From: Chryseobacterium joostei
GTDB taxonomy: Bacteria > Bacteroidota > Bacteroidia > Flavobacteriales > Weeksellaceae
Assembly (NCBI RefSeq): GCF_003815775.1
Contig: NZ_CP033926.1
Coordinates: 3,100,001 to 3,164,000, forward strand
Direction: 5' to 3'
DNA length: 64,000 bases
The notes under the pieces are model-generated. The model had not been told where the DNA came from. It was given only the letters and a program-made list of their open reading frames with translations, and did not search any database. Shown here piece by piece: positions 44,892 through 54,729 of this stretch. Every line of letters begins with the position of its first letter. Position 1 is the first letter of the stretch. A program made the position numbers and the translations under genes.

Positions 44892-46307
44892 TTAAATTCT
44901 GTTTTTTATCATTTTACCCAATTTCTCAAGATCACTTTCTACACGGTCCGTCCATTCCAGAGCATAATTCAGACGCATACAGTTTTGGTACTGATTATAC
45001 TGTGAAAACATTCTTCCGGGAGCAAAATTTACCTTTTGGCTAACTGCTTCATCGTAAAGATCTTCTGTACAGATTCTTTTATCTAGCTCCAGCCACAACA
45101 TAAACCCTCCTTTTGGTTCTGAAATCTTAGTATTGTCAGGAAAATACTGGGTAACCGACTTTTGAATCTGAAGATAGTTCGCATAAAGCTTTTTCCTGAA
45201 CATCCTTAAGTGATGATCATACCGCCCATGTTCAAGAAAATCAGCTATTACATCCGAAAACAGAGACGGGCTGGAAACGGTTTGAACCAATTTCTGACGG
45301 ATAATCTTTTCCTTAAACTTTCCGGGAGCAACCCATCCAACCCTATATCCTGGAGCCAACGTCTTAGAAACTGACCCTACCCACATCACAATACCTGCTT
45401 CATCATAAAATTTACACGGCTTTGGTCTTCCGGCTCCGAAATAGATGTTTCCATACACATCATCTTCTACCAAGGGAACATTATGTTCGGTGAGCATTCT
45501 TACTAATTCTTTCTTGTTCTCGTCAGGCATTTGAAAACCCAGTGGATTATTGTAATTAACCACAAAGCAACAGGCAGATAGCTTTGGAAGAACCTTTTTC
45601 AATTCATCCAGGTCAACTCCCGTAATTGGATGGGTTGGAATCTCCACCGCTTTCAATCCCAACAGCTGAATAGCCTGAAGAATCCCGAAATAAACCGGAC
45701 TTTCCACCGCTACGGAGTCTCCGGGTTGTGTAACGGCCATCAGACAGTTATACACCCCGTTCATAGCTCCCGAGGTGATGACCAGATCCTTTTCTGTAAT
45801 TTTCCCCTCCATCACAATGGACCATTTGGCTATTTCCCTGCGAAGCTGTTCATTCCCTTGTACGGGTTCATAATTCGTTCCACTGTCACTTTTCCTCTTT
45901 ATTACATCAATCATGCATTTCTTCATCTTGGCTACAGGAAGAAGACTTTTCCCCGGAATCCCCAATGCAAATTGCGTCACATCTGTTCCTCCAATGGTTC
46001 CGAATACTTTCCCGATAAGATCTTCAGGAGTATTCTTTCCCTCAGAAATTTTCATTTTAGCCACAGAGGGCAATGCTAACTTACGTTGTGAGGTTTGGCT
46101 TACAAAATATCCGTATTTTGGGCGTGATTCTACCAGAGAACGACTTTCAAGCTCCATATATGCTTGTTTTACAGTATTTAAACTAACATTATACAACTTT
46201 TGAGCACTCCTTAAGGAAGGCAGCCTGTCTCCAAACTGCAACGTCTCACTTTTGATCTGTTCGGTGACAGAATTGGCTATTTTAAGGTAAAGGACATCTT
46301 TGGGCAT
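44892..46307 (-). CDS. MocR-type GntR/aminotransferase transcriptional regulator
   Basis: 471 residues. N-terminal GntR winged helix (about 1-70: 'YLKIANSVTEQIKSETLQFGDRLPSLRSAQKLYNVSLNTVKQAYMELESRSLV'), linker, then a fold-type I aminotransferase domain with the PLP lysine in 'VGSVSKTLAPGYRVGW'. Such regulators use PLP or its adducts as signal. The target genes are not evident; the GNAT gene downstream is a candidate. Confidence 0.9.
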   Translation of the reverse strand: MPKDVLYLKIANSVTEQIKSETLQFGDRLPSLRSAQKLYNVSLNTVKQAYMELESRSLVESRPKYGYFVSQTSQRKLALPSVAKMKISEGKNTPEDLIGKVFGTIGGTDVTQFALGIPGKSLLPVAKMKKCMIDVIKRKSDSGTNYEPVQGNEQLRREIAKWSIVMEGKITEKDLVITSGAMNGVYNCLMAVTQPGDSVAVESPVYFGILQAIQLLGLKAVEIPTHPITGVDLDELKKVLPKLSACCFVVNYNNPLGFQMPDENKKELVRMLTEHNVPLVEDDVYGNIYFGAGRPKPCKFYDEAGIVMWVGSVSKTLAPGYRVGWVAPGKFKEKIIRQKLVQTVSSPSLFSDVIADFLEHGRYDHHLRMFRKKLYANYLQIQKSVTQYFPDNTKISEPKGGFMLWLELDKRICTEDLYDEAVSQKVNFAPGRMFSQYNQYQNCMRLNYALEWTDRVESDLEKLGKMIKNRI

Positions 46308-46350
46308 GAATCACAGTTTTAAGTAAATGTACAATTTTATCCCTGTTTTT

Positions 46351-46716
46351 CTAAGGATTAAGCCAGTTTATCATTCCATTAATACTGCTTTTTAGTTGTC
46401 TGGGATCTCTAAAATTAGGGGTATTATTTTTTCTAAAATAGTTCTCTACTCGCGCTATAAAACTTTTCTTTTCTGATTCTTTTATCTCTTTTTTATCATA
46501 GATCTTAAAGTCTATTTTACCTTCCTCATCTATGATAAGGCTGGCAAATGAAGTAATCTTATTTTCTTTTTTAGCTAAAAGAAAAGGAATCCCAAAATCA
46601 GGGCTTACTTTCTGACTATCTAGGCTTTGTAAAAATATATCTTTAAGCGCCAACATGTCTGAAATATAGACCTCAGCATATTGAAGTGATTCCGGATGTT
46701 GAATATTGGTTTCCAT
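46351..46716 (-). CDS. Hypothetical protein, 121 aa
   Basis: No family recognised. Hydrophilic alpha/beta-looking protein with no signal peptide or membrane segment; FASLIIDEEGKIDFKIYDKKEIKESEKKSF and a C terminus SINGMINWLNP are the notable parts. It lies 43 bp upstream of the MocR-type gene in the same direction. Confidence 0.55.
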   Translation of the reverse strand: METNIQHPESLQYAEVYISDMLALKDIFLQSLDSQKVSPDFGIPFLLAKKENKITSFASLIIDEEGKIDFKIYDKKEIKESEKKSFIARVENYFRKNNTPNFRDPRQLKSSINGMINWLNP

Positions 46717-46836
46717 AGTATTCTGCTTTACTCAAACAAAATTATGGAGTATTAAAGCTTGGATACAGATACAGAAGAATAGAATATTATGGATACAGAT
46801 AGATATAGAACCATTTATAATTATCAATCAATTGTC

Positions 46837-46861
46837 GGAATGCAAATATTTTAAGCATTCC
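46837..46861. promoter_or_regulatory. Candidate operator before the S24-like XRE gene
   Basis: GGAATGC-N11-GCATTCC inverted repeat, 13 bp upstream of a TATATTTG -7 box. The region 46760-46805 also holds a direct repeat of GGATACAGATA. Confidence 0.45.
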
Positions 46862-46873
46862 TATATGATTTTT

Positions 46874-46881
46874 TATATTTG
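46874..46881 (+). promoter_or_regulatory. -7 element for the S24-like XRE gene
   Basis: TATATTTG, 20 bp before the ATG at 46902. Confidence 0.55.
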
Positions 46882-46901
46882 CAAAAATTATTAGACAAAA
46901 A

Positions 46902-47507
46902 ATGAGTTTCTTTGGAACTAACATTAAGAAAATAAGACAAGTTAAAGGACTGAGCCAAAAAGCTTTTGCTGATTTACTTGACTTAAACAGAGGAGTGATA
47001 AGCTCATATGAAGAGGAACGTGCAGAGCCAAAGATTGAAACGATATTAAAGGTAGCCAGCCACTTTAGTCTTGATCTTGATAAGCTATTGACTGAAACTC
47101 TGGAAACAGATCAATTACTCAATGTTTCAGGCATGGATCAACTAAGTCTTTTTCCAGAAACTACTATTAATGAAAGGAATGAGGAGTCATCATTACAGGA
47201 TAATAATTCCAAAAACCACAGTGTTCTGCAAAAAATATTAGCATCCGTAGATCTGATCTATGAATTTACAACAGAAAACCCATTGCTTCCTCAATACAAT
47301 TACGGAGATATCTTATTTCTGAATAAGGCTGATCTTAAAATTGATCCAACCTATAATCTATTGGTTTATACTGATGGTAATTTACAATATGCCTCCCGTA
47401 CAGATAAACAGAACCTTTATAAAATTGTAGGACAGGTTTCAATCTCTGAAAAAAATATTTTCACAGATATTTTTAAGAGGCTAGAAAAATTAGAAAGGAA
47501 AGAGTGA
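46902..47507 (+). CDS. XRE family regulator with S24-like C-terminal domain
   Basis: 201 residues. HTH domain at about 5-65 (IKKIRQVKGLSQKAFADLLDLNRGVISSYEEERAEPKIET). The C-terminal part (about 120-195) contains NPLLPQYNYGDILFLNKAD and 'NLLVYTDGNLQYASRTDKQNLYKIVGQV', resembling the LexA/CI dimerisation fold, without an evident Ser/Lys dyad. This is the build of phage-type repressors. It faces the restriction-modification operon (27 bp between convergent stops) and may be part of that island. Confidence 0.75.
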   Translation: MSFFGTNIKKIRQVKGLSQKAFADLLDLNRGVISSYEEERAEPKIETILKVASHFSLDLDKLLTETLETDQLLNVSGMDQLSLFPETTINERNEESSLQDNNSKNHSVLQKILASVDLIYEFTTENPLLPQYNYGDILFLNKADLKIDPTYNLLVYTDGNLQYASRTDKQNLYKIVGQVSISEKNIFTDIFKRLEKLERKE

Positions 47508-47534
47508 AAAGTTGTTTATACATGGTTATAAATT

Positions 47535-48737
47535 TTAGTTCATATTGTAAACTCTTATCAATTCTTCCTTAATCCCTCTAAAATCTAAGTCATAATCCAG
47601 ATTTTGAGATAGGCCTGTATTGATAACATAGATCAAAGATTCTTTTCTGTACAGAAACTCTCCTTGATTAAGGGATTTTTCAATATTACTGGTCTTGGCA
47701 AGCAGGCAAACGAGCTGATAGTCTCTGTTAATAGCATCCGTTTTATTACCCGGATGGGCCTTTGCATAATGCTGTGTAGGGGTGAGCTTAATTAAGTTTT
47801 CAAGATAGTGAGCCAGGGATGGAAATTTAGACTTGGGGAAAATATGATGTACCTGAGTAGCTTCACCATTCCCCCATTGATCCTTAATTTCACTTTCCTT
47901 GTACATTTTACGAATTATTTTCATCGCTTTTTGAATCAAATAATCAGAGTAGGCTCCATTTTGATTCATTAACAATGATTCATGCTCTTCTATCGCTTCG
48001 TTTCTTGAAATATTTTTGTTTTTCCCAACATCCCTCCAATTGGGACGATTATACATCAGATCGGTATAGTAGAATTGATTAGGGGATATTCTTCCCTTGG
48101 CAGCTCCTTGAATGTTATTCTCACATGCATATACATTCAGAATCTTTGGAAAAATTCTATTAACTTCAGTTTCTCCATTGATGGCAGTATTGCCAATCAT
48201 AAATCTTTGGAACCTTTCTTTAAGTTCTGCAAAGTCATTATTTGTAACGGATTTATCCAAGCACCTATCCTTGAAAGCATCAAAATATCTGATCTGTCCG
48301 CTGTCCGATAGTACTTTTATAAGATAATGATATAGAAAGATATAGGCATTCCTTTCTTTCATCGCTATAAACTCAAGAATTACCTGATTATTAATGCTGT
48401 AAAGGTTTCTTTTACCATCTTTACGCATCCTCAGAACATTTGCATAGGCTAGTGTTCTTAAAGGTTGTGAGGTAAATTTATCATATTCCTGTCTGGTTGT
48501 TTCATTCCCTGCGTCCGGTTTATTAAAGATTGCTTTTACATTATGATTAAAGTAATCGTCATTCCAGATATCATCCTTAGTAAATTCAATATCTCTGTCT
48601 GCAACAAAATTAAGGACACAGTCTGCTATAATGCAAAGTACATCAGGAGTTACCTTTTGATCCATGAATCTGGCATCTTTTGACTTTCTGACATCAAAAT
48701 CAAAGCAAGCAAAAAAATCAGTAAATAATTCAATCAT
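47535..48737 (-). CDS. HNH endonuclease of the restriction-modification locus
   Basis: 400 residues. The HNH core is close to the C terminus: H297-H298 in 'TQVHHIFPKSKFP', N314 in LENLIKL and H323 in 'TPTQHYAKAHPGNK', a beta-beta-alpha-metal motif. The preceding 290 residues are unrecognised and could hold a DNA-recognition domain. Its start overlaps the PD-(D/E)XK gene by 4 bp (ATGA), so the two are translated together. A restriction nuclease role is inferred from position after a methyltransferase. Confidence 0.8.
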   Translation of the reverse strand: MIELFTDFFACFDFDVRKSKDARFMDQKVTPDVLCIIADCVLNFVADRDIEFTKDDIWNDDYFNHNVKAIFNKPDAGNETTRQEYDKFTSQPLRTLAYANVLRMRKDGKRNLYSINNQVILEFIAMKERNAYIFLYHYLIKVLSDSGQIRYFDAFKDRCLDKSVTNNDFAELKERFQRFMIGNTAINGETEVNRIFPKILNVYACENNIQGAAKGRISPNQFYYTDLMYNRPNWRDVGKNKNISRNEAIEEHESLLMNQNGAYSDYLIQKAMKIIRKMYKESEIKDQWGNGEATQVHHIFPKSKFPSLAHYLENLIKLTPTQHYAKAHPGNKTDAINRDYQLVCLLAKTSNIEKSLNQGEFLYRKESLIYVINTGLSQNLDYDLDFRGIKEELIRVYNMN

Positions 48738-49294
48738 ATCAATAAGTCATTGAATGGTTTTAGCAATGATGTGGGAACAGGTGATGCAGGAAATGGATAT
48801 CTTCCTCCATACGGACGATCATAAGTGGGAAGATACTGATCTGTGATGATCTTAGTCTCCAAATATCCCAATGGATACCAAACTTCTGGAATCTCCCGAA
48901 TAAACAACCCAAAAATGACCAAGTCATATTTTGATAGCAGATCGAATTGTCCTTTGTTAATTAAGCGTCTTCCATACGCTTTATCATCATTTATTTCTTT
49001 TGATAAAATCTTTCGGGCAAATCCTTCCGGAACTGTTTCTGTTTTTACATCAATGCGTTTACCGTTTACTATAATATCATAGCTGTCTATGGTCAGATAG
49101 TTTTCCCGTATATTCTGTTTCCAGTCTTGATGTAAGGCTGTAGAACAAGCAAATTCTCCCCAAAAACCCAATTCATCTCTTTCTTCCGAACTCAGATGTT
49201 CTACTTCAAAATGATGCTTTATAAAGGCATCCCTTTTTTGAGCTTCAATTTTAGCCTGAGCTTTCATCTCATCTGATATCAGTACTTTGATCAT
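48734..49294 (-). CDS. PD-(D/E)XK nuclease-like protein of the restriction-modification locus
   Basis: 186 residues. E47 in ELGFWGEFACS, D73 in DSYDIIVNGK, and D82-V-K84 in RIDVKTET form a PD-(D/E)XK core. The C-terminal half, with VIFGLFIREIPEVWYPLGYLETK, is unrecognised and would hold the other strands. Start overlaps the methyltransferase stop by 4 bp and its stop overlaps the HNH start. Likely a nuclease or nicking subunit; alternatively a specificity or accessory protein. Confidence 0.7.
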   Translation of the reverse strand: MIKVLISDEMKAQAKIEAQKRDAFIKHHFEVEHLSSEERDELGFWGEFACSTALHQDWKQNIRENYLTIDSYDIIVNGKRIDVKTETVPEGFARKILSKEINDDKAYGRRLINKGQFDLLSKYDLVIFGLFIREIPEVWYPLGYLETKIITDQYLPTYDRPYGGRYPFPASPVPTSLLKPFNDLLI

Positions 49295-51798
49295 TCCATG
49301 GTTTTTAAAAGACCAAAGAAAAATACGGAATTATTGTCAATATTCAAGGAGCGGGTACCATAATTTCGGGCCACTCTATAAAATTTTTCGAATTCTTTTG
49401 TTCCGTAATATTCCAGATCGGTTTCCGTTGGCATCCTGCTTCCATTTTTTAATGTTAACAAAGCAACAGATCCGTCTGCAATAGTATTTTTAGGCAAAAA
49501 ACTTGCTCTTGGATAATAGGTTAGGTTGGGAACCATCACTACTCCATCCTTATTTAAGTATTTGGAAACAGCCAACTTCTCGGCATCATCAATATAGCTG
49601 TCATAGTTATCAATTTCTATGATCTGGTTGGTTCCAACATTTCTGGACTTTAAAACCCTGTATTTACCACTCTCTTTTGTTAACAGCTTGGTGATCTGTC
49701 TGTCTCTGAAGCTCTGAAAAATATCAAACTTCATTTTATTAAAAATCTGGTCAAATTCTTCATTTCTATACAACAGCCAGTAGGGAAACTGAGCAGAAAA
49801 TAAATAGTCTTTTTTGCTCTCCTTTACCGTTTCTGTAATATAACTTTCAATTAAAATAGTCTCAGAAATCTTTTTTGCCGATGTTTCAAGCAAAAAGCTG
49901 ATGGTTTCTATTTTAACTCCTTTAAATCCCTTTTCTCCGTAGTCACAAATCTTCAAAAGATTTTGTTCCTTTAATATTTCACGGGTCATATTAAATTCAG
50001 GAGCATTAATAAGGCTTTTAGGAACAATTAATGATACGAATTTTCCAATTGTAATGGCCTTTTCAATAAAGAAAGAAAACAGATTATTCGTTTCTTTATT
50101 TTGAGATTGCCCTTTATATGTTGCCAGCAATTCCTGACTATTGGTAAGCTTTTTATAGGGTGGATTTCCTACTACAAGATCATACTTTACATCAAACTGA
50201 TGAGTCAGAAAGTCGGCATTGATAAAGTTAAACTTAAACTTCTTCGGTAGCTTCAAGTGGCTCAAAATTTCCTTTAAAACCACAAAAGAGTTCCCGTCAA
50301 TATCTACAAGGTCAAAAATAACCTCGTCCTTATCTTCGTATTTTTCAACAAGAAGCGGAATGAAGTTTCCAATTCCGACAGACGGTTCCAAAATCCTTAT
50401 CTTTTTCTTGCCTTTAAACTCAGGAAGATCCTTTACTACCGTGAAAGCAATATCTTTTCTTGTGAAAAATGCAGCATTTTCCTGACGGCTTGAGTTGGCA
50501 TATTCAGCAATCTGATAGATATTTTCAAGCCCGAATTTTTTGAAATCAGACTGTATTAAAGAAATCAGATTCTCTGTTATATGCAGTTCTTCTTTTTTAA
50601 TAATTGTATTGAGTTCTGTTGCCGAAAGAAATTTTTGCCCAACAACGTCCTTAATTCTCTTGGCAATATTAGCAAAAACCCCTGTAGGAACTGCCTCTCC
50701 TATACAATGTCTGATATTAAGTTCTTCTTTCTTCAAAAACTTTTTCTGCTCTTCAACATCTAATTCATCCAATGTTTCCACAGATACATTGGTCCATGCA
50801 AAATTCTCCGGAATACTCATCATCAGCATCAGTTCTCTGATACTGAAAACTCTGTTCTCAGAGGGATGAACGGTATTCTGGCTGGCTAAAATATCATTTC
50901 TTGTATGAACACACGGTCCTTCTCTGTCCCAGTACCAGCGGGCATATTTATCTCCATTCTTGCTTTTATTGAAAACAATTTCACCATCCTTTATCTGATG
51001 AGGAATCCTTTCCTTTTCTTCATTTTGAAAGGCAGATTCACCCTCTTTTAATTTTTCAATCCAGGGAAGCATCTTTACGTCATACTCTCTGAATGAATGA
51101 AAAATATCATTTTCAGAAATAGCTCCCATTTTATTAAGTTTTTCCAGACCTGTAAAGAGTTCTCTTAATGTTTTAGGTTTCTGCTTTTGAGGAAAAATAT
51201 CAAACGGACTTATATTTTGCAAGTCTTTTCGGACACCAATTACCAAGGTTCTTGTTCTGCTTGAATTGGCCCCGTAATCCTTGAAATTGATTACTTTAGA
51301 TAAAATATTATAGTGTCCGCCAAGGTTTTGTATAATAGCTTCACCAATAGTTTTCTCTAATCCGTCTGTATCTGTACAAGTTGTTGTTAAAAAAGCTCTT
51401 ACATTTTCAAAGACAAAAAACCTTGGATTAACCTTTTTTGTAATCTTGATGGATTCAACCACTAATGAATTTCGCCCTAATTCATCATTCTTTTTATGAT
51501 TGGCAACAGACATTCCCTGGCAGGGAGGTGTTGCGATAATAATATCGGGTTCAGAAATATGATGCTTCTTTTTCCACATATCTATTTCTGTAAATAATTG
51601 ACTTTGAACTTTTTCAGAAGTTATATCTCCATCCAAATATCCAGTTTCATATTTGCATTTTTGATTGTGCTCCTGAATCTTTAAACGTTTTGAAAGCAGC
51701 TCATTTGTCGCGATACATTCAAATCCATTTTCTTTAAACCCAAAACAACCTACTCCTGCACTGCTGAATAAACTAATATAAGTTAGTGGCTTTTTCAT
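49291..51798 (-). CDS. Fused m5C and m6A DNA methyltransferase
   Basis: 835 residues with two complete catalytic modules. Residues 1-390 are a C5-cytosine methyltransferase: motif I ISLFSSAGVGCFGF, motif IV PPCQ with nucleophile Cys93, motif VI E131-N-V, motif VIII SSRTRTLVIG, and a motif-X-like IGEAVPTGVFANIAKRI at 366-382. Residues about 430-835 are a gamma-type N6-adenine methyltransferase: FFTRKD (444), motif I LEPSVGIGNF (470-479), NPPY (545-548), then a target-recognition region like that of TaqI-type enzymes. It would put two kinds of methyl mark at one site, suited to an asymmetric target. Starts 3 bp after the controller gene; both downstream genes overlap by 4 bp. Confidence 0.88.
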   Translation of the reverse strand: MKKPLTYISLFSSAGVGCFGFKENGFECIATNELLSKRLKIQEHNQKCKYETGYLDGDITSEKVQSQLFTEIDMWKKKHHISEPDIIIATPPCQGMSVANHKKNDELGRNSLVVESIKITKKVNPRFFVFENVRAFLTTTCTDTDGLEKTIGEAIIQNLGGHYNILSKVINFKDYGANSSRTRTLVIGVRKDLQNISPFDIFPQKQKPKTLRELFTGLEKLNKMGAISENDIFHSFREYDVKMLPWIEKLKEGESAFQNEEKERIPHQIKDGEIVFNKSKNGDKYARWYWDREGPCVHTRNDILASQNTVHPSENRVFSIRELMLMMSIPENFAWTNVSVETLDELDVEEQKKFLKKEELNIRHCIGEAVPTGVFANIAKRIKDVVGQKFLSATELNTIIKKEELHITENLISLIQSDFKKFGLENIYQIAEYANSSRQENAAFFTRKDIAFTVVKDLPEFKGKKKIRILEPSVGIGNFIPLLVEKYEDKDEVIFDLVDIDGNSFVVLKEILSHLKLPKKFKFNFINADFLTHQFDVKYDLVVGNPPYKKLTNSQELLATYKGQSQNKETNNLFSFFIEKAITIGKFVSLIVPKSLINAPEFNMTREILKEQNLLKICDYGEKGFKGVKIETISFLLETSAKKISETILIESYITETVKESKKDYLFSAQFPYWLLYRNEEFDQIFNKMKFDIFQSFRDRQITKLLTKESGKYRVLKSRNVGTNQIIEIDNYDSYIDDAEKLAVSKYLNKDGVVMVPNLTYYPRASFLPKNTIADGSVALLTLKNGSRMPTETDLEYYGTKEFEKFYRVARNYGTRSLNIDNNSVFFFGLLKTME

Positions 51799-51801
51799 CG
51801 T

Positions 51802-52128
51802 TTAGAATTCTATTTCGGTTTGTTTTACGTTCATATTCCTCATGTAATTAATCTTTTCCTTGGCCACATTCAAAGCCTCAGGCAAGCAATTGTATTTAAA
51901 CATTTTTTTTGCAAATTGATCTCCAAAATATTCCACTTTCAATTTTTCAATATCAAGATTAAAAACATCAGCCAACTTTTCCAATCGTCTTTCGTCAAAA
52001 TCTCTTTTTCCGTTTTCAATTTTACTTAGGTTTGCAGAATCAAGCTCAAGTCTTGCTGCAAGCTGCGTTAAGGTCAAATGATTATTGGTCCTTAACTCTC
52101 TGATATATTCACCGAACATTACTTTCAT
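51802..52128 (-). CDS. XRE-type controller protein of the restriction-modification operon
   Basis: 108 residues. HTH at about 6-62 (IRELRTNNHLTLTQLAARLELDSANLSKIENGKRDFDERRLEKLADVF), then a short C-terminal extension. Size and place are those of C proteins that time expression of restriction and methylation. A TTGTCAA/TTGACAA inverted repeat and a direct half-site lie right upstream of its ATG, overlapping the promoter, which fits self-control. Confidence 0.85.
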   Translation of the reverse strand: MKVMFGEYIRELRTNNHLTLTQLAARLELDSANLSKIENGKRDFDERRLEKLADVFNLDIEKLKVEYFGDQFAKKMFKYNCLPEALNVAKEKINYMRNMNVKQTEIEF

Positions 52129-52130
52129 GG

Positions 52131-52163
52131 ACTTGTCAATTTTAACTTGTCAATTATTGACAA
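52131..52163. promoter_or_regulatory. Controller operator: direct and inverted TTGTCAA repeats
   Basis: TTGTCAA at 52133-52139, repeated 14 bp on at 52147-52153, and TTGACAA at 52157-52163. TTGTCAATTATTGACAA is a perfect palindrome around a central T. The group starts 3 bp upstream of the controller ATG and reaches the -7 box. Confidence 0.75.
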
Positions 52164-52168
52164 ATGTA
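52161..52168 (-). promoter_or_regulatory. -7 element of the controller-methyltransferase operon
   Basis: TACATTTG on the minus strand, sharing bases with the palindrome. Binding there would block or guide polymerase. Confidence 0.6.
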
Positions 52169-52242
52169 ATGCTTTTACACTTAAAATCGATTCTTTTTTT
52201 GTTCTGTTTTGTATCAAAATAATGATGGAAAATAACCTGAAT

Positions 52243-52680
52243 TTAATAGAGAAAAGTATCTGAGGAATCAACAATCTTGCTATATAGATTTTCAAGACTT
52301 TGCTTTCTACAATTGCTTCGGAGCGAACACTCCCAAACCACAATGGTTTTGATTTTCTGAGACAAAAGAATCATTTCATTTCTATAATCTCTATCTTTTG
52401 TTTTCTGGGTCTTTTTGCTCCACCAGGTCCTATTTGTCTTGGGCAATATAAAAAGACTGCAATTTTCATGACCATGCCAAAAACACCCTCTAACTTCTAC
52501 CACAATGCCATATCTTGCCAAGTAAATATCAGGTTTTCCTGCTAATTTATTGGGATGTAAACTATATCGCAACCCTTTTGAATGCAGAAATCTTCGTACT
52601 AAAAGCTCAGGCTTTGTATCCCTCCCTTTAATCATACTCATGATATAGCTTCTTGAGTTACTTTCGTTTGGATTTGCCAT
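52243..52680 (-). CDS. vsr: Very short patch repair endonuclease Vsr
   Basis: 145 residues. Vsr hallmarks: 'SYIMSMIKGRDTKPELLVRRFLHSKGLRYSLH', catalytic Asp51 in GKPDIYL, His69 in 'VEVRGCFWHGHENC', and later WWSKKTQKTKDRD. It nicks next to T:G mismatches left when 5-methylcytosine deaminates. Its presence supports the cytosine-methylating half of the fusion protein being active. First gene of the restriction-modification operon, 114 bp before the controller gene. Confidence 0.93.
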   Translation of the reverse strand: MANPNESNSRSYIMSMIKGRDTKPELLVRRFLHSKGLRYSLHPNKLAGKPDIYLARYGIVVEVRGCFWHGHENCSLFILPKTNRTWWSKKTQKTKDRDYRNEMILLSQKIKTIVVWECSLRSNCRKQSLENLYSKIVDSSDTFLY

Positions 52681-52699
52681 GACCTAAAATTATTTTGCT

Positions 52700-52712
52700 A
52701 TTGTGTCACAAT
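52700..52712. promoter_or_regulatory. Palindrome upstream of vsr
   Basis: ATTGTG-T-CACAAT, 20 bp before the vsr ATG. A possible regulator site; no partner is known. The rest of 52681-52825 shows no gene. Confidence 0.35.
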
Positions 52713-52825
52713 AAAATTACTACAATTCTATAAATCAATGTATGTTGGGAATTATTTTCTGAAAAACATAAAAGAAACAGTATTTCTAATCTAATAAAAG
52801 ATAAAAATAGTACCCGTTTTTAAAA

Positions 52826-52860
52826 CAAAAAACCCTCCGTAATAAATACAGAGGGTTTTA
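52826..52860 (-). terminator. Terminator of the duplicated tRNA-Leu unit
   Basis: AAAACCCTCTGTATTT...ACGGAGGGTTTT hairpin with T-run on the minus strand, directly after tRNA-Leu(UAA). Nearly identical to the one at 53167. Confidence 0.8.
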
Positions 52861-52861
52861 G

Positions 52862-52943
52862 TACCCCAGACGGGACTTGAACCCGTACATCCGAAGATAC
52901 AGGATTTTAAGTCCTGCGTGTCTACCAATTCCACCACCAGGGC
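52862..52943 (-). tRNA. tRNA-Leu, anticodon UAA (copy 2)
   Basis: 82 nt. Acceptor stem GCCCTGG, anticodon loop ACTTAAAA giving UAA, long variable arm (GTATCTTCGGAT) of class II tRNAs, T-loop GGTTCAAGTCC. The CCA end is not encoded. It differs from the copy at 53208 mainly in the variable arm and T stem. Confidence 0.93.
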
Positions 52944-52993
52944 TGGTGAGGGCAAAAAAAATAGGATCTGAAGAAATCCTACTTTTTTTTGTG

Positions 52994-53075
52994 TGCGGAT
53001 GAAGGGACTCGAACCCCCACGCCTCACGGCACCAGATCCTAAGTCTGGCGTGGCTACCAATTACACCACATCCGC
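52994..53075 (-). tRNA. tRNA-Leu, anticodon UAG (copy 2)
   Basis: 82 nt. GCGGATG acceptor stem, anticodon loop ACTTAGGA giving UAG, variable arm GTGCCGTGAGGCGT, T-loop GGTTCGAGTCC. It differs from the copy at 53377 by one base (C in place of T just before the anticodon stem). Confidence 0.95.
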
Positions 53076-53119
53076 TGGTTATATTGATCTGCTTTCACAG
53101 ATACAATCTATAATTCTTA

Positions 53120-53127
53120 CAAATATA
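53120..53127 (-). promoter_or_regulatory. Candidate -7 element for the second tRNA unit
   Basis: TATATTTG on the minus strand, 44 bp before tRNA-Leu(UAG) copy 2. Confidence 0.55.
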
Positions 53128-53166
53128 AGAATATTTTTTAATTTAAAGAACTCTATACTCTCTATA

Positions 53167-53206
53167 AAAACAAAAAACCCTCCGTAACGAAAATACAGAG
53201 GGCTTT
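53167..53206 (-). terminator. Terminator of the first tRNA unit
   Basis: CCCTCTGTATTTTCGTTACGGAGGG hairpin then TTTTTTG on the minus strand; its right edge touches the end of tRNA-Leu(UAA) copy 1. Confidence 0.8.
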
Positions 53207-53207
53207 G

Positions 53208-53291
53208 TACCCCGGGCGGGACTTGAACCCGCACGCCAAAAGAGGCACAGGATTTTAAGTCCTGCGTGTCTACCAGTTCCACCACCAGGGC
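53208..53291 (-). tRNA. tRNA-Leu, anticodon UAA (copy 1)
   Basis: 84 nt. GCCCTGG acceptor, anticodon loop ACTTAAAA (UAA), variable arm TGCCTCTTTTGGCGT, T-arm GCGGGTTCAAGTCCCGC. Confidence 0.95.
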
Positions 53292-53299
53292 AGGTGTGG

Positions 53300-53372
53300 A
53301 GCGAAAAACGGGATTCGAACCCGCGACCCCAACCTTGGCAAGGTTGTGCTCTACCAGCTGAGCTATTTTCGC
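53300..53372 (-). tRNA. tRNA-Gly, anticodon GCC
   Basis: 73 nt. Acceptor GCGAAAA/TTTTCGC, D-arm AGCTCAGCTGGTAGAGC, anticodon stem-loop CAACCTTGCCAAGGTTG giving GCC, T-arm GCGGGTTCGAACCCG. CCA not encoded. Confidence 0.96.
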
Positions 53373-53376
53373 ATAG

Positions 53377-53458
53377 TGCGGATGAAGGGACTCGAACCCC
53401 CACGCCTCACGGCACCAGATCCTAAGTCTGGCATGGCTACCAATTACACCACATCCGC
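53377..53458 (-). tRNA. tRNA-Leu, anticodon UAG (copy 1)
   Basis: 82 nt, almost identical to the copy at 52994. First tRNA of the array, 51 bp after a strong promoter. Confidence 0.95.
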
Positions 53459-53509
53459 TGGTTTTTTTATATTGTAAGTTTTAAAGAGCTTGCTTCGTTT
53501 TTGTGAGTG

Positions 53510-53539
53510 CAAATATAGGACAATTTCCTTTACCTCCAA
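53510..53539 (-). promoter_or_regulatory. Promoter of the tRNA Leu-Gly-Leu operon
   Basis: On the minus strand TTG (53539-53537), 19-bp spacer, TATATTTG (53517-53510): full Bacteroidota consensus. Confidence 0.75.
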
Positions 53540-53637
53540 ACTTTTTCGGAAAAAAAATTAAAATTTCTACATTTTTCACCTATGGCACCTAATATTACAT
53601 TTCATTTTCTTACTTTTACAACGTTAATAATTACAAT

Positions 53638-54015
53638 ATGGAATTACAAGGAACGGTAAAGAAACTTTCTGAAACTCAAACATTTGCAAGCGGGTTTCAA
53701 AAAAGAGAATTGGTTATTTTAACTCAGGAACAGTATCCACAGCCGATAAACATAGAATTTTTGTCTGATAAGATCAGTTTATTAGATAACCTTAGAGAAG
53801 GTGAAAATGTAAAGATAGGAATCAACATCAGAGGAAGAGAATGGGTTTCTCCACAAGGTGAAACTAAGTACTTCAATTCTATTACAGGGTGGAGAGTAGA
53901 GAAAGTTTTAGACAATGGATCTGAGCCTACACAGGCAATGCCTCAGCAGTCAGCTTCTCCTGTTTCTAATGAGAATCCGTTTGCCGGAGATGATGACGAC
54001 GATTTACCTTTTTAA
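53638..54015 (+). CDS. DUF3127 protein with SSB-like acidic C terminus
   Basis: 125 residues. Residues 1-95 form the DUF3127 domain, probably an OB-like fold (MELQGTVKKLSETQTFASGFQKRELVI, 'GREWVSPQGETKYFNSITGWRVE'). The end is NPFAGDDDDDLPF, very like the acidic D-D-D-I-P-F tip by which single-strand DNA-binding proteins recruit repair enzymes. This suggests a DNA- or nucleic-acid-related role, which is not proven for the family. A weak TACTTTTA box lies 20 bp before the start. Confidence 0.85.
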   Translation: MELQGTVKKLSETQTFASGFQKRELVILTQEQYPQPINIEFLSDKISLLDNLREGENVKIGINIRGREWVSPQGETKYFNSITGWRVEKVLDNGSEPTQAMPQQSASPVSNENPFAGDDDDDLPF

Positions 54016-54075
54016 TTAAAGAATAAAGATCAAATATAAATCCTACTTTATTAAGTGGGATTTTTTTGCTAAAAG

Positions 54076-54729
54076 ATGGTCCGACTAGACGAAAACGAGA
54101 TTTCATTTCCTGATCCTGAACTGTATGACGGTCATGATGGACTTATTGCCTACGGAGGCGATTTGTCTGTGGAACGCATATGGTTTGCTTATCAATTGGG
54201 GATTTTTCCCTGGTACAATCCAGGAGAAGAAATTCTATGGTGGAGCCCGGATCCAAGATTTATTTTGCTCCCTGACGAGATCAAGGTTTCAAAATCGATG
54301 AGAAAGATAATGAATAGAAACATTTTCACCTTTTCTGAGAACCAAAATTTCAGGGAAGTGATTAAAAATTGTCAGCAATCTCACCGAAAGGGGCAATCAG
54401 GGACATGGCTTTCTGATGAATTGATGAATTCTTTCATTAAACTTCATGAATATGGATTGGCCAAAAGTATTGAAGTGTGGCAGGATGGTGAATTGGTTGG
54501 TGGATTTTATGGTTTACAAATCGGAAATGTATTCTGTGGAGAAAGCATGTTTGCAAAGGTAAGCAATGCTTCAAAGGCAGGATTTATTCATTTTGTGGAA
54601 AGCAACAAAGATCAGATTGAATTAATTGACTGCCAGTCTCATACTGAGCACTTGGAAAGCTTGGGTGCTAAAATGATTCCTAAAAAAGAATTTTTAAAAA
54701 TCCTACACGAAAACAATGAACGCAGATAA
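54076..54729 (+). CDS. aat: Leucyl/phenylalanyl-tRNA--protein transferase
   Basis: 217 residues. Family blocks: FPDPELYDGHDGLIAYGGDLSVERI, 'YQLGIFPWYNPGEEILWWSPDPRFIL', 'GLAKSIEVWQDGELVGGFYGLQIGNVFCGESMF'. It adds Leu or Phe from tRNA to N-terminal Arg or Lys, marking proteins for ClpS-ClpAP. Overlaps the EamA gene by 14 bp. Confidence 0.95.
   Translation: MVRLDENEISFPDPELYDGHDGLIAYGGDLSVERIWFAYQLGIFPWYNPGEEILWWSPDPRFILLPDEIKVSKSMRKIMNRNIFTFSENQNFREVIKNCQQSHRKGQSGTWLSDELMNSFIKLHEYGLAKSIEVWQDGELVGGFYGLQIGNVFCGESMFAKVSNASKAGFIHFVESNKDQIELIDCQSHTEHLESLGAKMIPKKEFLKILHENNERR

Follow-up and report, generated by a model that had tools for sequence, protein, structure and literature searches.

A putative HpyAV/Hin4II-family restriction-modification cassette with a fused m5C-m6A methyltransferase and a rare nuclease-like gene in Chryseobacterium joostei

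Organization and borders of the locus

We analysed a stretch of 64,000 nucleotides of Chryseobacterium joostei (the window), taken from a genome of 4.89 Mb. Five genes, all on the minus strand, lie side by side in the order Vsr, XRE, M, a 186-aa gene, and R (Table 1). The open reading frame coordinates bear out the gene positions that a preliminary description had given for an operon at 47535..52680. The regulator, the HNH endonuclease, and Vsr named there are present, but the 186-aa gene, which overlaps both M and R by 4 bp, had been overlooked. XRE and M are separated by 3 bp. M lies upstream of R in the same direction, as expected for the HpyAV/Hin4II family, with one extra gene between them.

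Table 1. Genes and regulatory element of the cassette, in window positions
Feature	Position	Strand	Remarks
Predicted Vsr-type mismatch nicking endonuclease, 145 aa	52243-52680	-	Neighbouring accessory gene
Probable operator: half-site TTGTCAA (52133-52139) and palindrome TTGTCAATTATTGACAA (52147-52163)	52133-52163	.	Exact palindrome, conserved
XRE-type regulator, 108 aa	51802-52128	-	Pfam HTH_3, E 2.9e-12; probably controls the R-M genes
Fused DNA methyltransferase M, 835 aa	49291-51798	-	m5C half and gamma-type m6A half
Putative PD-(D/E)XK nuclease, 186 aa	48734-49294	-	Accessory, located between M and R
HNH restriction endonuclease R, 400 aa, HpyAV-like	47535-48737	-	H297, H298, N314, H323; PADLOC REase_II PDLC03488

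The Vsr protein scored 102.1 bits against NCBIfam TIGR00632 (cut-off 97.85), which places it in the curated Vsr family, and matched the E. coli Vsr structure (PDB 1cw0) with E 6.1e-19. It resembles E. coli Vsr also in that its gene lies near a cytosine methyltransferase. E. coli Vsr is specific for CTWGG, whereas the window protein would have to act at a mismatch derived from CCTTC. Vsr was found in one of the 17 related loci that include 6 kb of upstream sequence, that of Chryseobacterium L001.

The XRE protein has the sequence hallmarks of a restriction-modification control (C) protein, being a small helix-turn-helix protein with a symmetric upstream element and R-M neighbours, and 16 of the 19 loci in which the start of M is present have an XRE match upstream of it. 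The 114-bp gap between Vsr and XRE contains the palindrome, which is probably an operator. Its pattern, TTGTCA-N5-TGACAA, occurs at the same offset in all six loci with a close XRE, of 68% identity or more (L001-L005 and L018), and was absent in the seven examined of the ten loci whose XRE is ~34-37% identical. Since 0.95 matches with up to two mismatches are expected by chance in the window, the evidence for an operator is this conservation. The palindrome overlaps a TAnnTTTG sequence, which we take to be a Bacteroidota-type promoter element; Vsr therefore probably lies outside the transcript from that promoter. Thus, the Vsr gene that had been placed at the head of the operon exists, but the conserved palindrome in the gap before XRE makes its membership in the operon doubtful. 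Promoter-like sites numbered 27 (24.1 expected) and terminator-like sites 10 (3.8 expected), six of the latter in the tRNA region at 52829-53324. Most repeats within the cassette were short pairs of imperfect copies.

Five of the 15 regions fetched from genus relatives have the two flanks 27-221 bp apart, where the window holds ~5.3 kb. The matching flanks reach 47326-47503 on one side and resume at 52818-52823 on the other. These near-empty sites indicate gain or loss of the whole cassette in one piece. The cassette of C. aurantiacum (L001) lies on the same tRNA side, and the flank on the other side has no match in the window.

A plus-strand XRE gene at 46902-47507 was considered as part of the cassette and rejected, as matching DNA is present in nine of the 15 fetched regions without R-M genes. 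The insertion point was also considered as a pure defence hotspot, a view that found no support; three relatives have ~4.7 kb of other genes there. Judged by eye, those genes would encode a receptor of TonB type, a protein of PepSY type, and a regulator. The wider interval, which in the window (46307-54076) runs from a MocR-type regulator gene to an aat-type gene beside a tRNA-Leu/Gly cluster, ranges from ~1.3 to 33 kb in length among genus relatives.

The methyltransferase and the endonuclease

Both methyltransferase domains were identified by Pfam in the single open frame of M: DNA_methylase at residues 6-383 (E 3.1e-37) and Eco57I methylase at residues 522-623 (E 6.9e-14). Using the motifs as limits, we divided the protein into an m5C half (~1-390), a variable linker (~391-425), and a gamma-type m6A half (~426-835). 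Among 31 aligned fused proteins, window included, PCQ, ENV, and R-x-R were kept in every one (RTR in 30 and RSR in one), and the second-half motif reads NPPY in 18 and NPPF in 13. The domains and the motif conservation uphold the earlier proposal that one 835-residue chain carries complete m5C and gamma-type m6A motifs; a loss of catalytic residues on proper alignment was looked for and not found in any of the 31. The AF2 model of M is poor (pLDDT <50) at residues 94-107, beside the catalytic Cys, in most of 249-315, in much of 693-786, and at 814-827.

The fused architecture has many relatives. A PADLOC profile for the fused protein (823 positions) matched M residues 3-833 with E 8.2e-222; PADLOC additionally holds separate profiles for the two halves, of 387 and 445 positions. 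M is 44% identical end to end to a Helicobacter pylori P12 protein (P0290, 822 aa; 369 of 834 columns), and equally to a second H. pylori cluster. Among the database matches listed, nine other proteins are 93-99% identical to M, the five named ones being from Chryseobacterium. The best 120 of 5549 matches are all at least 70% identical to M with 100% of M covered, and the remainder may include unfused enzymes.

R matched the PADLOC Type II endonuclease profile with E 2.9e-102. H297, H298, N314, and H323 are kept in all 32 aligned R proteins, window included, and correspond to H294, H295, N311, and H320 of HpyAV. The spacing is also that of HpyAV H295-N311-H320, with 16 residues from 298 to 314 and nine from 314 to 323, giving the His-His, Asn, His pattern of the family's HNH endonucleases. 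In HpyAV, H294D, N311A, and H320A left no detectable cleavage and H295A kept ~1%, according to the available part of the report (PMC2816704). A PDB sequence search with R gave no match. We based family membership on the PADLOC profile, the residue spacing, and relatives at 40-47% identity in 11 regions, together with an R in two pieces (L083) at 43-51%; HpyAV R itself was compared by residues only.

An R match follows M in 19 of the 20 related loci L001-L020, L019 being the exception; among the 19, R is partial at a contig end in L012 and in two pieces in L017 (Sulfurimonas sp.). In all 17 loci read, a single open frame of at least 830 aa encodes M; M is in two frames in L015 and cut by the contig in L014. 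A further locus, L021, whose cytosine-side match is at 26%, was left out. Among 59 genus and order relatives, the window's own genome is the only one to match the fused profile over its length, and the next best covers profile positions 5-333. Within the phylum of L017, an M relative was detected in 16 of 298 genomes at E 1e-60, the L017 genome included, and an HpyAV-like R adjoins M in 12 of the 13 regions fetched (in L083 as the two pieces). The thirteenth, L084, has a partial M match and no R.

The 186-aa gene between M and R

The 186-aa protein received no Pfam, NCBIfam, or PADLOC name, and a PDB search with its alignment returned a single, weak match (E 0.54). E47, D73, D82, and K84 are invariant in 60 sequences. 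The structural model places E47 in helix 36-53, D73 just before strand 74-76, and D82 and K84 in strand 79-88, an arrangement of E...D...(D/E)xK residues on the core fold that is consistent with the PD-(D/E)XK superfamily. Judged by sequence and model, the protein is probably a nuclease of this superfamily. BisI-family modification-dependent nucleases (Eco15I, NhoI) were considered as candidate relatives. When the model was compared with viral structures, few of the first 50 matches bore a functional name.

The gene is rare: of 395 genomes from the phylum to which the window belongs, the window's genome alone carries it. This rarity would suit an unrelated phage hitch-hiker that entered the operon and has no part in restriction. 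So would its viral relatives, since 13 of 14 viral contigs (4-12 kb of sequence each) have no M or R near the relative. Furthermore, the gene is decayed in C. aurantiacum (L001), where M and R are still open, and no match to it was found in two phage records holding at least 80% of M or in an Acinetobacter plasmid holding 75% of M. This origin is a serious possibility, but not one that we favour. The same gene adjoins the same M/R family in Carboxylicivirga (L020). Two Moraxellaceae plasmid records are the only two of 72,556 that carry it and likewise the only two in which one place covers at least 80% of M. The invariance of the catalytic-type residues and the 4-bp overlaps with both neighbours also speak against a mere passenger.

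That the protein serves as a second functional nuclease of an HpyAV-like sub-branch, acting at the same or a modified target, appears doubtful as a specific proposal. If true, a single operon would hold two methylation chemistries fused in one chain and two nucleases of unrelated fold, whereas most of the viral relatives found carry this nuclease alone. The 186-aa gene is in any case the one fresh element of the locus: rare, nuclease-like, and met again both beside R-M systems of this family and in viral contigs that lack them.

The 13 regions from the L017 phylum yielded no relative of the gene. Three IMG/VR contigs (L036, L038, L040) hold relatives without M or R, amid genes that look phage-like by eye. 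In Winogradskyella flava (L019, 7733-8314 and 5917-7680), the M match extends to residue 561 and no further, R was not found, and the 186-aa frame is open; this locus is apparently a decayed system that retains the accessory gene.

Target, predicted function, and known relatives

With a probability of about 0.9, we read the cassette from its sequence as a Type IIS restriction-modification system of the HpyAV/Hin4II family, with fused dual methylation, most likely of CCTTC/GAAGG, HNH cleavage, and XRE control. The N-terminal half of M would place 5-methylcytosine on one strand of the asymmetric site, and the C-terminal half N6-methyladenine on the other. The HNH endonuclease would cut unmodified sites, 6/5 nt downstream by analogy with HpyAV. 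The palindrome ahead of the XRE gene is the probable binding site of its product, which would in this way govern its own gene as well as M, the 186-aa gene, and R. Repair of the T:G mismatches that follow deamination of 5-methylcytosine may fall to Vsr, and the 186-aa protein may assist or add to restriction, as a dispensable component.

The target was judged from specificity domains whose limits we assigned ourselves. Compared with the H. pylori P12 protein, identity in the m5C half is 47% for the presumed specificity domain and 56% for the catalytic core; in the m6A half, the two values are 42% and 36%. The linker is 26% identical. In 12 regions from the phylum of L017, the specificity means are 50% and 44%, against 58% and 43% for the cores. 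Conservation is thus about equal in the specificity regions and the catalytic parts, which favours CCTTC, and the target is plausibly shared with the H. pylori enzyme; identities of 42-47% in these regions are compatible with differing targets as well and do not prove the same one. The same family and mechanism could serve another site, such as one that departs from CCTTC by a single base. According to the part of the 2010 report available, the target of distantly related endonucleases may be CCTTC or a site differing by 1 bp (PMC2816704). Further points in this direction are that M is only 44% identical to the H. pylori protein and that R diverges faster than M in L001-L020, where the best R segments are ~37% to 88% identical to the window R and the M segments 59-96%. 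Set against the even conservation of specificity regions and cores in the groups compared, we regard a differing target as rather unlikely, and CCTTC stays the preferred site.

Solitary methyltransferases are common, and an active M beside a dead R would be one more. This is very improbable here: the reading frame of R is open over its full length, all four HNH residues are present, and an alignment of 20 sequences has 62 invariant columns.

The fused architecture had invited the view that this is a new kind of system, the first to protect an asymmetric site by m5C and m6A from a single chain. The available text of the 2010 report describes M.HpyAV (HP0054, H. pylori) as "a true fusion" of both methyltransferase types and tabulates ten further putative homologous systems, every M being fused (PMC2816704). 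In those excerpts, the authors state that the product size of M.HpyAV lacks biochemical confirmation. Their Table 2 lists a P12 enzyme 98% identical to M.HpyAV (PMC2816704), and P0290 is that enzyme by name and length. The hp0054 methylome of 2013, as far as the text is available, gives m5C at 1198 of 1304 CCTTC sites and m6A on the complement at 1252 of 1304 (PMC3936762). A third source, also available in part, calls M.HpyAV the sole methyltransferase of its strain able to be both types, and its tables give only the m6A motif (PMC10810217). Together with the best 120 database matches, all covering the fused protein in full, these publications leave a categorically new fusion scarcely credible.

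The preliminary description had assumed that m5C and m6A enzymes for one asymmetric site are known only as separate proteins. This premise was wrong, and an identical family had already been described for both the methyltransferase and the endonuclease; the proposed mechanism, one chain applying two chemistries to an asymmetric site, is by contrast well supported by homology. As for its remark that it was not aware of a characterised system with this exact gene set, the five-gene combination was not met in the literature, where no targeted search was made for it, but M and R are already known. Single-chain m5C and m6A protection is thus a published architecture with many relatives, to which the window contributes a Chryseobacterium case with well-defined borders and near-empty sites in relatives.

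The closest comparison is with HpyAV/M.HpyAV (HP0053/HP0054) of Helicobacter pylori, a host distinct from Chryseobacterium. The two systems share a single fused m5C-m6A methyltransferase with the same order of halves and, downstream in the same direction, an HNH endonuclease with the same HNH residues and spacing. The window adds XRE, the neighbouring Vsr, and the 186-aa gene between M and R; the available parts of the two reports describe HpyAV as M plus R and mention none of the three (PMC2816704, PMC3936762). Hin4II of Haemophilus influenzae has the same two methyltransferase types, but as separate genes of 387 and 445 aa; its endonuclease is 48% identical to HpyAV, of which it is an isoschizomer, according to the same partly available 2010 report (PMC2816704). 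Acinetobacter towneri plasmid pTT1-3-2 (NZ_CP114603) encodes related M halves (52% and 37%) and an HpyAV-like R, and its record carries a relative of the 186-aa gene, as the window does. There, however, M1 and M2 are separate overlapping genes, and the match to the 186-aa gene is on the opposite strand and extends to where the circular record ends, instead of sitting between M and R. In Acinetobacter towneri, the split m5C/m6A genes (L052, 5989-9701) have the Hin4II arrangement and lie on a plasmid typed as mobilizable. MhoVII of Mycoplasma hominis likewise fuses two methyltransferases for a non-palindromic site; in the part of that report available, its motifs are GATG/CATC with 6mA, and its halves fall in the YhdJ and MTaseD12 branches (PMC12898733). 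The window pairs C5-cytosine and N6-adenine methyltransferases in one frame with an HNH endonuclease and, by its sequence features, belongs to the HpyAV/Hin4II family, extended by a nuclease-like accessory gene that is rare.
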